A stretch of DNA of 34,463 bases. Source: Limnochordia bacterium. Lineage in GTDB: Bacteria; Bacillota; Limnochordia; Darwinibacteriales; DTU012. How positions within the stretch are numbered: position 1 is the stretch's first letter; the number at the start of each line of letters is the position of its first letter. This document shows, piece by piece, positions 4,641-11,673 of this stretch. Made by a program: the position numbers and the translations under genes. Location: positions 1 to 34,463 of the forward strand of contig SKJB01000153.1 in assembly GCA_007116145.1 (NCBI GenBank), given 5' to 3'. Below the pieces are notes generated by a model. The model did not search any database. It was not told where the DNA came from and saw only the letters and a list, made by a program, of their open reading frames with translations.

Positions 4641-5426
4641 ATGCGTGTATTTGTGTTTAAAATAAGTGTAACGAAAGTGTTAGGGTTGCTTATTGCGGTA
4701 TTGGTAACAACTAGTTTTGTGCAAGAGGTAGTGTCTCCGGTATTTCGTCAAGCTGTTTCTGTGACAACAACTCGATTAATTCCGATTTATCGAGTAGAAA
4801 CAGGGACTAAACAGATTGCAATTTCTTTAGATGCCACATGGGGTACAGATTTGACGGATGAGATCTTGAGTATCTTGAGAGAACATAATCTAAAGACAAC
4901 TTTTTTTCTAGCTGGATATTGGGTCGATAAGCATCCCCAGTATGTGATCAAAATTGCTGAAGAAGGTCATGAAATCGGTAATCATAGTTACTCCCATCCC
5001 CATATGAATTCGTTAACATTTGACGGAGTAGTGCGGGAGTTAGAAAAGAATCATGCCATGATTAAAGAGTTGACAGGACAAGATTCTTTTCTATTTCGCC
5101 CCCCTTTTGGAGAGTACAATAATACAGTCATAAAAGGGGCTGACTCCATTGGCTATTATACAATCCAGTGGTCTATTGATTCCTTAGATTGGAAAAATAC
5201 CACAAGTGACGAAGTCTACCAACGGGTGATGAGTAAGGTAGGGCCTGGTGATATCGTATTGTTTCATAATGCAGCAAAAGCAACTCCAGATGCACTACGC
5301 CGTTTAATACCGGATTTGAAAGCAAAAGGTTATGAAATCGTTCCGATTTCGCGCTTGATTATTCGAGAAAACTACTATATTGATCATGATGGCACCCAGC
5401 GAATACGCAAAGGAAGTGAATCATGA
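4641..5426 (+). CDS. PdaB-like polysaccharide deacetylase (sporulation family)
   Basis: This is a NodB-fold CE4 protein of 261 residues with an N-terminal membrane anchor (about 8-30). Motif 1 reads SLDATWG (Asp64), motif 2 HEIGNHSYSHPHM (His115, His119), motif 3 RPPFGEYN (Arg153), and motif 5 IVLFHN (His209). Replacement of the usual second Asp of TFDD by Ala is a feature of the PdaB branch, which in Bacillus is needed late in sporulation to keep spores viable. Classical CE4 enzymes remove N-acetyl or O-acetyl groups from glycans, using a metal held by Asp-His-His; with one Asp lost, catalysis by PdaB-type proteins is uncertain. GAGGAGG lies 9 bases before the ATG. It overlaps the next deacetylase gene by 4 bases. 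Confidence 0.85.
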   Translation: MRVFVFKISVTKVLGLLIAVLVTTSFVQEVVSPVFRQAVSVTTTRLIPIYRVETGTKQIAISLDATWGTDLTDEILSILREHNLKTTFFLAGYWVDKHPQYVIKIAEEGHEIGNHSYSHPHMNSLTFDGVVRELEKNHAMIKELTGQDSFLFRPPFGEYNNTVIKGADSIGYYTIQWSIDSLDWKNTTSDEVYQRVMSKVGPGDIVLFHNAAKATPDALRRLIPDLKAKGYEIVPISRLIIRENYYIDHDGTQRIRKGSES

Positions 5427-8123: not shown

Positions 8124-8173
8124 AGATAAGCAAACTATTGCGTACATTATTTATTTCGTTAAGGGAGGATTTT

Positions 8174-9439
8174 ATGTATCAGAGAACAGTCATACCAAAT
8201 GGAACTCGCGTTTTAACAGAATATATTCCTCATGTTCGTTCGGTTACACTTGGAGTATGGTTTGAGACTGGTAGTCGCGATGAAAACCAAGACCAATTAG
8301 GTTATGCCCATCTCTTAGAGCATATGACATTTAAGGGTAGTGAGCGCTACGGTCAACGCGATATTGCAGAACAGATGGATGCTTGTGGTGGGCAACTAAA
8401 CGCGTTTACCGGTAAGGAGTATACTTGCTATTATGCGAGAGTTCTAGACGAAAATTTGCCTTTAGCTGTTGATATTTTACAAGAAATACTGATGTTTCCT
8501 CTCCTTGCCACAGATGAACTTGACAAAGAACGTGGAGTGATCTTAGAAGAAATCAAAATGTATGAAGATACCCCAGATGATCAAGTTCATGATTATCTAT
8601 GCGAATTGTTGTGGCCTGATCATCCTTTAGGTAGAAATATTCTCGGTACGCGTGAGAGCATCCTTAAAGTCAAACGATCGGAATTAGTTTCATTTATGCA
8701 GCAATATTATACCTCAGATCGCATGATTATTGCAGCTGCAGGTAATGTTGATCATGATCAATTAGTGAAGTTAGCAGAGCAATTTAGCGGGCTAGTCAGG
8801 CCCTCTGTAACGAATACAACAAAACGCCCGATTACCAATGTTGGGCAGCGGTTCAATAAGTTCAAGGAAATTGAACAGACACATTTATGTTTAGGCGGTC
8901 CAGCTATTTGTCGCGTAGATGCGCGCAAGTATGTACTTCATCTTTTAGATACCATTACTGGTGGTGGTATGAGTTCTCGGCTATTTCAGGAGTTGCGAGA
9001 AAACCGGGGATTAGTCTACTCAACATATTCGTATCATTCTTCGTATCGCGATACCGGTAATTTTGGTGTCTATGCTGGTTGTAGCCATGAACAGGTAAAT
9101 CAGGTGATCGATGTGATGCAAGAACAGTTAACGGCACTAGGGACGCAACAAATTGCCCAAGATGAGTTAGTGCGAGCTAAGGGTCAGCTAAAAGGAAGTT
9201 TAGTTTTGTCACTCGAGAGCACCACGAACCTGATGACCAAATTAGCAAAGAGCGAAATGAATTACGGAAGAATTTTTCCTACTGATGAGATTCTGGCAGC
9301 TATCGATAGTGTAAGTATTTTACAAATTAGAGATTTAGCGCAAGAATTGTATAACCCCGCTAAGTGGAGTATTGCTTGTGTAGGTCAAGCAAATGAACCG
9401 TTTTATCAATCGTCTTTATCTGAGGGTCGATTAACTTAG
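8174..9439 (+). CDS. mlpA: M16-family zinc peptidase (MlpA/YmxG type)
   Basis: This is a 421-residue insulinase-like (MPP-beta-like) peptidase. The inverted zinc motif HLLEH is at 46-50 and the third ligand is probably Glu126 in ERGVILEEIK, which fits the HxxEH-x(76)-E spacing. The C-terminal half has the R/Y pair region of active subunits (SSRLFQELRENRGLVYST). ATG 8174 is chosen because GGGAGG lies 5 bases upstream; the in-frame ATG at 8138 lacks such a site. The family member next to ymxH in Bacillus is called MlpA or YmxG, and its substrate is poorly known. It is normally followed directly by ymxH; here an extra gene intervenes. Confidence 0.88.
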   Translation: MYQRTVIPNGTRVLTEYIPHVRSVTLGVWFETGSRDENQDQLGYAHLLEHMTFKGSERYGQRDIAEQMDACGGQLNAFTGKEYTCYYARVLDENLPLAVDILQEILMFPLLATDELDKERGVILEEIKMYEDTPDDQVHDYLCELLWPDHPLGRNILGTRESILKVKRSELVSFMQQYYTSDRMIIAAAGNVDHDQLVKLAEQFSGLVRPSVTNTTKRPITNVGQRFNKFKEIEQTHLCLGGPAICRVDARKYVLHLLDTITGGGMSSRLFQELRENRGLVYSTYSYHSSYRDTGNFGVYAGCSHEQVNQVIDVMQEQLTALGTQQIAQDELVRAKGQLKGSLVLSLESTTNLMTKLAKSEMNYGRIFPTDEILAAIDSVSILQIRDLAQELYNPAKWSIACVGQANEPFYQSSLSEGRLT

Positions 9440-9441
9440 GG

Positions 9442-9470
9442 TTTACTTATTTCGTGATTTGTGGTAATGT
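9442..9470 (+). promoter_or_regulatory. Possible sigma-A promoter for the beta-rich secreted protein
   Basis: TTTACT (9442-9447) and TAATGT (9465-9470) are spaced by 17 bases. The same -10 hexamer, TAATGT, occurs in the pyrR promoter of this window. The predicted start (about 9476-9478) falls at the foot of the hairpin that begins at 9477. The -35 matches consensus at only four of six bases. Confidence 0.4.
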
Positions 9471-9476
9471 GTAATT

Positions 9477-9540
9477 GACTCCGTGCCCAAGGGAAATAGT
9501 CAAAGGGAGGGTAACCTTTGACTATTCGCGGAGTCTTTTT
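9477..9540 (+). promoter_or_regulatory. Terminator-like hairpin enclosing the RBS and start of the beta-rich protein gene
   Basis: An outer stem GACTCCG (9477-9483) / CGGAGTC (9529-9535) and a perfect 12-base inner stem (9495-9506 / 9515-9526, AATAGTCAAAGG and its complement) are followed by TTTTT (9536-9540). The loop (9507-9514) and the inner arm hold the ribosome-binding site AAGGGAGGG, and the TTG start (9518) lies in the right arm. It can act as the terminator of the M16 gene, as an attenuator or translational lock on the next gene, or at DNA level as an operator dyad. Confidence 0.75.
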
Positions 9541-10837
9541 GTCGTTTATCTTGTTGCTTATTTATCCAGCGGTGGCATATTCACATGGTATAGCTGTTCG
9601 TAGTGATGGAAACATAGAGTGGCCAAATTCGCATGGCCAAGTTGCAACAGAGCTACAGATGACTTGCCAATTGACAGAAAATCACGAATTTAGCGGTCGA
9701 TTAACTTGGTTAGCGTCTTCTTCTGAGTCTACCATTCATACCACATGGGACTATTGGAGATTTTCCTATGGTAAGGAAAACAATCAATGGAGCATTAATT
9801 ATCGTCACCCGCACTATACGTCAAAGGACGCGTTTCGTATACTACATCAAAGTAAGTATAGTGCAGACGGGCTTTCGTATATCTACCAGAGAAACAGTAG
9901 TGCTATTGTGTTTATTGAAGGCGTACTAGACGAGAACAAGATGCCGACAGATGCTCTATTTATCCAACATTCAGGTAAGCATTCTCGAGGCGGATGGTTA
10001 GTTTCTTTAATGGGTTATGATTCAGGGATGCAGTGGATGCCAATTGCTCCGAGCGATCTGTGGGATTTCCAACGTAGCTCTGGTCAGATCGCAGTGGTTG
10101 ACAGGAATTGGTTAGTTGGTGAACATAAAGTATCTGTGGCTGGGGCTACGTTAGTACGTAACCACCATAGTAGGGGCTTGGTTACGACCGCAAGTGAGCA
10201 GGCATTTCTGGTCAATGTAGACGTAAAAACTAAGGATTTTACACTACAACCGTCTTTTCGCTATATTGGTCCCGAGTTTGTGTGGCCTTATGTACATACG
10301 AGCGCTTATCGTCGAGATCGATTTGGGTTAAGCTTTTTGGCGGATTGGGATCCAAGTGCCTTCCGAGTTCGTCTACGAAACGAAGATCTATGGGGAATTT
10401 CGCAACAGCGTTGGTTCAGAAAAACTGAAGTGCGAATGGACTATCCGGGGCCACGAGGTAGTTTATTTGTGATAGCCCACTTTCGCCCTAATCAACGCTT
10501 GGTTATTGGGCAACAAATTGGCGCAATTTCCCTAGAATGGCGGATGGATCCACCCCAGATCTTATTTGATTGGAGTAGTGGTGCTCACCGGCTTCGTATA
10601 AATTGTGTGGTGGCATATCGTTATCGGATGGAATATCGATATACAGGTGGGTACGATCTACGGGCAGTATATAAGATTGAACCTGAAACTAGTCGGAGCC
10701 ATATCTACGCTACGGTAAAATTTGGGAATGAAAATCGTTTTATGGAAATAAGTTATGGTGAAAGCGATCGGGGGCAGCTCGGAGCGAAGTTTGATGTGGA
10801 TCCAAGTCTACGCCTGGCTTGGGGATGGGGATGGTGA
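9518..10837 (+). CDS. Secreted beta-rich protein of unknown family, candidate outer-membrane beta-barrel
   Basis: I do not recognise this family. The 439-residue product has a clear signal peptide (Arg4, hydrophobic 5-19, likely cleavage near AYS-HG at 22-23). The rest is almost free of hydrophobic helices and is built from alternating polar/non-polar strands rich in Tyr, Trp and Arg, for example RLRINCVVAYRYRMEYRY. The last nine residues LRLAWGWGW place Leu, Leu, Trp, Trp, Trp at every second position and end in Trp, as in the beta-signal of outer-membrane barrels. About 16-18 strands would fit the mature length. No catalytic motif is seen. TTG 9518 is supported by AAGGGAGGG six bases upstream and by the signal peptide. 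It lies between mlpA and ymxH, abutting ymxH. An exported carbohydrate-binding or coat-like beta protein is the alternative. Confidence 0.7.
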   Translation: MTIRGVFLSFILLLIYPAVAYSHGIAVRSDGNIEWPNSHGQVATELQMTCQLTENHEFSGRLTWLASSSESTIHTTWDYWRFSYGKENNQWSINYRHPHYTSKDAFRILHQSKYSADGLSYIYQRNSSAIVFIEGVLDENKMPTDALFIQHSGKHSRGGWLVSLMGYDSGMQWMPIAPSDLWDFQRSSGQIAVVDRNWLVGEHKVSVAGATLVRNHHSRGLVTTASEQAFLVNVDVKTKDFTLQPSFRYIGPEFVWPYVHTSAYRRDRFGLSFLADWDPSAFRVRLRNEDLWGISQQRWFRKTEVRMDYPGPRGSLFVIAHFRPNQRLVIGQQIGAISLEWRMDPPQILFDWSSGAHRLRINCVVAYRYRMEYRYTGGYDLRAVYKIEPETSRSHIYATVKFGNENRFMEISYGESDRGQLGAKFDVDPSLRLAWGWGW

Positions 10838-11110
10838 ATGATGCGGTACTCAGACTTAGCGGGAAAAGAGATAGTCTGTGTCGACGAAGGGATTCGGTTA
10901 GGAGTGATTAATAATACAGATTTAATTGTCAACACCGAAACTGGCGAAATTGATTCGATTATTATTCCCTATGGTAAAGGTTATTTTAAAAATAAGGTGG
11001 TTGTGGTTCCTTGGAAAGGAATAAAAAAAATAGGGAGAGATCTAATTATCGTTGACCTTAGTACGGCTGAAGATTACAGAGACATCGTGCGGAGATTAGA
11101 TTTAGAATAA
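10838..11110 (+). CDS. ymxH: YlmC/YmxH family PRC-barrel sporulation protein
   Basis: This 90-residue PRC-barrel protein has the order typical of the YlmC/YmxH group: an opening RYSDLAGKEIV, then GxRLGVI and a closing VPWKGIKKIGRDLIIVD. In Bacillus, ymxH lies between mlpA and dpaA; the molecular role is not established. The ATG follows the TGA of the upstream gene without a gap, so translation is probably coupled. A second ATG three bases later (10841) is equally usable. GGGGATGGGG within the end of the upstream gene may serve as the ribosome-binding site. Confidence 0.88.
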   Translation: MMRYSDLAGKEIVCVDEGIRLGVINNTDLIVNTETGEIDSIIIPYGKGYFKNKVVVVPWKGIKKIGRDLIIVDLSTAEDYRDIVRRLDLE

Positions 11111-11169: not shown

Positions 11170-11673
11170 GTGTCAACAGTGATAGGTGTATTCACAGAGA
11201 CTAGGGCTGCTGAAAGAGCAGTGAAAGCATTACGTGAAAAAGGTTTTGATGAAAGCGAGATTTCTATTGTAGCTCGCGATGAAGGAAAGACTGTTAAGCG
11301 AGATATGGAAGTTGGTGGCGAACTAGGTGGAGCTGAGAATATCGCTGATGGAACAGCTTGGGGTGGAGCCTTAGGTGGTGTTGCTGGTCTGTTAGCAGGA
11401 GTTGGAGCACTAGCGATTCCAGGAATAGGTCCAATTGTGGCTGCAGGTCCATTGGCTGGAGCGCTCTCTGGGGCTGTCACCGGTGGTGTCGCTGGTGGTT
11501 TGATTGATTTAGGCATACCTGAGGAACGTGGTCGTAAGTATGAACAGGATCTGAAAAGTGGTGGTATACTAGCCGTAATTGAAACAAGCAATGACAAGAG
11601 TGATGATGCTAGCGAGATATTGCGAAATAATGGTGCTAAAGATGTGGAAACTCACGGTGGCGAAAATCGCTAG
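11170..11673 (+). CDS. YflT/GS17M-like general stress protein
   Basis: The 167-residue product starts with the YflT (heat-induced stress protein) fold: VIGVFTETRAAERAVKAL then GFDESEISIVARD. A Gly/Ala-rich, moderately hydrophobic stretch follows (about 55-115, with repeated GGxxGG), and a second short alpha/beta segment (GGILAVIET) closes the protein. This pattern is common in Bacillota genomes and is linked to stress in Bacillus; no reaction is known. The Gly-rich part could insert into or bind membranes. GTG 11170 has AAAAAGGGGG about eight bases upstream. A strong terminator follows, so it is probably its own transcription unit between ymxH and dapB. Confidence 0.75.
   Translation: MSTVIGVFTETRAAERAVKALREKGFDESEISIVARDEGKTVKRDMEVGGELGGAENIADGTAWGGALGGVAGLLAGVGALAIPGIGPIVAAGPLAGALSGAVTGGVAGGLIDLGIPEERGRKYEQDLKSGGILAVIETSNDKSDDASEILRNNGAKDVETHGGENR

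Follow-up and report, generated by a model that had tools for sequence, protein, structure and literature searches.

A class-specific predicted outer-membrane β-barrel of Limnochordia and the conserved leader hairpin that encloses its start codon

Leaders that control their own message come in several known kinds, including attenuators, leaders that sequester the start codon, and the 5′ hairpin of ompA, which shields the 5′ end of this E. coli mRNA from exonucleases. Outer-membrane barrels are also of several kinds. LptD has a barrel of approximately 26 strands preceded by an OstA/LptD_N domain, and the Gram-negative porins (Porin_4) are barrels with constriction segments. In the diderm Bacillota, OmpM1 of Veillonella is a 16-stranded barrel with constriction loops, an SLH domain and a coiled-coil stalk (PMC10628300). 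The Limnochordia have been described as diderm as well (PMC11456536; PMC11448272). Here we analyze a locus from a Limnochordia bacterium in which protein and control are each of a known kind, while the barrel family and the leader arrangement are new as far as the libraries and papers we searched show; our literature search found no description of the barrel protein.

The locus lies in the window, which is the whole stretch of 34,463 nucleotides that we analyzed. The original prediction placed an outer-membrane β-barrel gene between mlpA and ymxH, and identification of the ORF and its neighbors bears out this placement. The genes and protein features are as follows.

8138–9439: M16 peptidase (mlpA), the upstream neighbor
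9518–10837, + strand: barrel-protein ORF, 439 aa, with its TTG start inside the inner 3′ arm of the leader hairpin (ORF, family alignment, fold model)
9518–9583, + strand: signal peptide, residues 1–22 (sequence, helix 3–18 in the model, codon usage)
9803–9871, + strand: conserved non-strand segment 1, residues 96–118 (HYTSKDAFR), putatively pore-lining (alignment, model)
10268–10318, + strand: conserved non-strand segment 2, residues 251–267, putatively pore-lining (alignment, model)
10757–10807, + strand: conserved non-strand segment 3, residues 414–430 (GESDRGQL), putatively pore-lining (alignment, model)
10808–10834, + strand: C-terminal strand LRLAWGWGW with β-signal-like alternation (sequence, relatives, model)
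10838–11110, + strand: ymxH (PRC-barrel; Pfam PRC 4e-12, adjacency in the order and class)

The stop of the barrel ORF abuts the start of ymxH, and the two genes are probably cotranscribed. After ymxH come the genes for a YflT-like protein, dapB, dpaA and dpaB. The YflT-like protein (window 11170–11673) is glycine-rich, adjoins ymxH and is conserved across the class.

The barrel protein has no family match in Pfam, NCBIfam, PHROGs or PDB sequences, in agreement with the earlier remark that no family with such a sequence was known. Its N-terminus, MTIRGVFLSFILLLIYPAVAYS, reads by eye as a signal-peptide-like hydrophobic stretch. At the other end, the alternating last strand closes with W or F in 24 of 24 order-level relatives, and the C-terminus is aromatic-ended in 15 of 16 aligned homologues from other orders of the class.

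To model the fold, we ran AlphaFold2 on a 24-row alignment of the window protein and its relatives in the order. The model (mean pLDDT 91.4) contains an N-terminal helix (residues 3–18) and then, beginning at residue 22, approximately 26 strands connected mostly by short turns, the strand number being a manual count from the DSSP string. Both the signal peptide and the absence of any later hydrophobic helix, as originally claimed, agree with this model. A homologue from another order, modeled from 7 sequences (pLDDT 76), also has approximately 26 strands, and its long non-strand segments fall at the same three places as in the window protein. For each of the two models, all 50 of the best PDB fold matches are outer-membrane barrels, with TM-scores to known barrels of only 0.2–0.5 and no family singled out. 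Hydrophobicity alternation within the modeled strands is 2.43, compared to 1.16 ± 0.17 in within-strand shuffles, and none of 2000 shuffles scored as high. The even strand count and the uniformly barrel-type matches of the predicted models are compatible with a closed barrel. The mature protein is modeled entirely in strands; it appears to consist of the barrel only, as neither Pfam nor the model gives an OstA, POTRA, plug or other periplasmic domain. Fold, structural matches and strand alternation all support the barrel assignment. We strongly predict that the product of the ORF carries a signal peptide and is inserted by BAM into the outer membrane as a large barrel of approximately 26 strands.

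How does this protein compare with the described barrels? Like OmpM, which appears at rank 44 among the fold matches, it is a predicted outer-membrane barrel of a diderm Bacillota lineage with putative constricting segments, but it has more strands than the 16 of OmpM and no additional domain. We rejected membership in the OmpM family because no SLH domain or other Pfam family was found and the strands begin at residue 22. The strand number is that of LptD, structures of which rank 25, 31, 41 and 43. However, the window protein has no sequence match to LptD and its genome contains another LptD-like protein; membership was rejected because the OstA/LptD_N domain that precedes the LptD barrel is missing. 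Omp85/BamA was likewise rejected, since POTRA is absent and PF01103 has no match at the barrel ORF. The resemblance to Gram-negative porins lies in a barrel with constriction segments and in a weak Porin_4 match in one relative (E = 0.0023 and 0.00023 in two scans), whereas the window protein has more strands and no Porin_4 match of its own.

The original prediction called for a host with an outer membrane, and the machinery for one is present in the genome. A bamA gene (Omp85 with POTRA, E = 3.5e-52) adjoins tamB in a stretch that also holds lptF/G, a 256-aa protein ending in GVKWSF, and the following LptD-like protein.

L052:2996–5236 (contig C49), − strand: LptD-like protein, 746 aa, beside lptF/G (OstA_2 and LptD_N matches just below the cut-off; C-terminal part barrel-like)

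PF04453 has no match anywhere in this genome, the LptD-like protein included. The 256-aa protein (L052:6292–7062, − strand) starts with MGGTAIVGADDAMAVYSNPAGL, has no Pfam match and is likely an outer-membrane protein. Elsewhere in the genome (L053:9803–12622, − strand, contig C63), a protein of 939 aa joins an S41 peptidase to an Omp85 barrel in an unusual fusion. Across the class, 71 of 73 genomes have Omp85.

Conservation in the barrel protein is among its highest in the three non-strand segments, and D417 and G419 in segment 3 are invariant class-wide. Porins and OmpM1 have constriction loops, and by analogy we infer that these segments narrow or gate the pore. Placed in or across it, they would create a channel of the growing cell that is constricted and substrate-selective. 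The strand number, shared with LptD and ushers, and the presence of both among the fold matches could instead suggest a pore for export or assembly of a surface polymer, lipid or protein rather than a small-solute channel. We consider this unlikely: the fold matches favor none of these families, the periplasmic domains listed above are lacking, and a separate LptD-like protein sits beside lptF/G.

A search among relatives gave clear homologues, and profiles were used to define the extent of the family. Profile A1 matches 31 of 37 genomes of the order, upstream of ymxH and apparently in single copy, with some matches split by contig ends or frame breaks. The six order genomes that lack the gene are four species of one genus (g5), plus G014, in which the leader element is present close to the end of a contig, and G034, a genome that is 80% complete. 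In four of the five g5 species the barrel gene has been lost while ymxH and dapB are kept; in G004, one of the g5 genomes, mlpA is directly followed by ymxH. No convincing paralogue was found in the window's own genome. A single-sequence scan of genome contigs gave no match, and a sub-alignment of one family, used as the query, returned 20 named loci. Peptococcaceae bacterium 1109 is among the named members, and GTDB assigns it to class Limnochordia, family DTU010 (PMC8225771).

Other orders of Limnochordia carry an ORF of 414–494 aa upstream of ymxH with the motifs TS.DPFR; GF.S; K; G..D.GRLDA, and profile comparison links the order family to two other-order groups with 97 and 99% probability. 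In three families of the class, a dUTPase-like gene, identified by sequence reading, occupies the barrel slot. Among 398 sampled genomes of the phylum, A1 matches are confined to Limnochordia; with the wider profile A7 there is a single weak match outside the class, limited to the first 70 positions of the profile. Of these 398 genomes, 102 have Omp85, and no full-length barrel homologue is present in any of the 86 that are not Limnochordia. Because homologues occur class-wide and are absent from these Omp85-positive genomes elsewhere, the family marks the diderm class Limnochordia and not diderm Bacillota in general. The broader distribution entertained at the outset, over all diderm Bacillota, is thus rejected.

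The original prediction missed a second feature of this locus, a conserved hairpin in the leader, which lies downstream of a candidate promoter.

9442–9447, + strand: candidate −35, TTTACT (weak alone, 4/6; placed by comparison of 23 loci)
9465–9470, + strand: candidate extended −10, TG-G-TAATGT (TG-N-TATAAT in relatives, equally far from the hairpin)
9477–9540, + strand: leader hairpin and T-tract (fold z, covariation, covariance model R1 E = 1.4e-17)
9505–9511, + strand: Shine-Dalgarno GGGAGGG in the loop and the top of the inner stem, 6 bases upstream of TTG (sequence reading)

The hairpin consists of an outer stem with arms ACUCCGCG and CGCGGAGU, a 5′ bulge of 8–9 bases with an invariant AGGGA (9490–9494 in the window), an inner stem and a loop. 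It closes at 9535 and is followed by the T-tract (9536–9540). In the compared loci, the Shine-Dalgarno lies in the loop region, the start codon in or beside the 3′ arms, and the T-tract directly after. The window copy folds with −31.6 kcal/mol (z −5.96); for 23 other gene starts in the window, z ranges from −2.7 to +1.5. Fairly strong structures (z −2.7 and −2.3) also cover the starts of two polysaccharide-deacetylase-type genes, at 4641 and 5423.

Several measures show that the structure is conserved. We counted 7 covarying pairs and 17 doubly changed cells, compared to 2.8 and 4.1 in shuffles, and the stems pair at 92% in the true register versus 34–62% in registers slid by 1–3. A search with covariance model R1 located the element in 31 of 37 order genomes, always at the barrel gene, the other hits being marginal or on the opposite strand of this same hairpin; these conservation counts are less independent than they appear, as the genomes are related. 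R1 found no convincing further copy in the window's own genome, and Rfam 15 gave no credible match for the leader even at a relaxed threshold. In G003 the hairpin is lost and the barrel gene kept. The conserved RGVF of the signal peptide overlaps the outer 3′ arm and the T-tract. Its arginine is CGC in 22 of 23 genes, and phenylalanine in the first two codons after RGV, within the T-tract, is always TTT, compared to 58% elsewhere in the same genes. The conserved protein motif RGVFF is therefore at least partly a by-product of the RNA element.

When base accessibility was averaged over the start region, the gene did not clearly differ from controls, either in the order (p = 0.07) or elsewhere (p = 0.37). 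A measure chosen second, after accessibility failed to separate the gene from controls, was how far the start codon pairs with bases 5′ of the Shine-Dalgarno: its median is 0.96 in the order and 0.13 in neighbor genes (p = 1.5e-9), and 0.72 versus 0.13 in other orders (p = 0.001). Leader sequence is not conserved in those orders, and the start codon is again paired upstream. One such locus (L139) has the same design in different letters, with the Shine-Dalgarno close to the loop, an ATG within the 3′ arm and then a T-tract. At L138 (G049), from another order, a leader of different sequence has TATAAT, a hairpin and a T-tract at approximately 700–850.

Our reading of the leader is an attenuator, or a brake on translation, for a constricted channel protein. 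A GC-rich stem running directly into a T-tract is an attenuator feature and is conserved as such; a simple terminator scan, confined to loops of 3–8, did not flag the window copy. A possible antiterminator, for which covariation gave no support, could form in truncated transcripts, where the AGGGAG of the bulge is able to base-pair with the 5′ arm. From two GGA motifs, we also considered CsrA as a candidate regulator. The arrangement resembles attenuators and the ompA 5′ hairpin in being a structured leader of an outer-membrane protein mRNA, with a GC-rich stem and then a U-tract, but here the hairpin and T-tract include the Shine-Dalgarno, the start codon and the first codons.

A hairpin at the presumed 5′ end of a transcript might have no regulatory role, either shielding the mRNA from exonucleases or remaining as the terminator of the upstream gene. 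This is doubtful on both counts. A stabilizer needs neither a T-tract nor an enclosed start codon, and both are conserved. An upstream terminator is improbable because in G001 (L006) the upstream gene is oppositely oriented and the element is still present, and because a promoter lies between the upstream gene and the hairpin.

That promoter is best seen in relatives. Across the 23 compared loci, an extended −10 promoter ends approximately 6–12 bases upstream of the hairpin. The window copy is degenerate, a generic promoter scan found nothing at its candidate site, and the case rests on the relatives. Judged from these motifs, the barrel gene has a promoter of its own that resembles the vegetative sigma-A type. 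This bears on the suggested role in spore development, in which the barrel would be an outer-membrane protein made at forespore engulfment or during remodeling of the spore outer membrane. Only gene position points that way: the place upstream of ymxH is conserved across the class, with mlpA before it and dapB, dpaA and dpaB downstream. Gene order is weak evidence, however, because much of the block is not sporulation-specific. With a vegetative-type extended −10 directly upstream, the loss of the gene in g5 species that retain ymxH and dapB, and a dUTPase gene in the slot in three families, we regard a sporulation-stage protein as distinctly improbable, and the suggestion is not upheld.

Taken together, our analysis gives somewhat better than an even chance to a constricted, BAM-inserted outer-membrane channel of the growing cell, limited in cis by its leader hairpin. 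Transcription would start just before or at the foot of the hairpin, which buries the Shine-Dalgarno and start codon and leads into the T-tract. Left free, the hairpin may end transcription within the first codons or block initiation; opened by a ribosome or another factor, it would allow the channel to be made, and probably YmxH too. As the barrel ORF and ymxH abut, the leader probably also sets the level of ymxH. A more elaborate scheme, to which we assign only a small chance, has an ancient class-wide channel whose mRNA builds the terminator hairpin out of its own Shine-Dalgarno, start codon and first codons; whether the transcript continues would depend on ribosome binding. The element would then sense outer-membrane state or a ligand, set ymxH, and couple envelope supply to the dipicolinate and sporulation genes.

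Few branches of the Bacillota are diderm. The Limnochordia are one of these and have spore formers among them, so the components of their outer membrane are relevant to the question of how this membrane was retained or lost. This barrel family, specific to the class and constant in position, offers a marker and a first channel for expression, and the leader RNA makes control of outer-membrane protein in Limnochordia testable.
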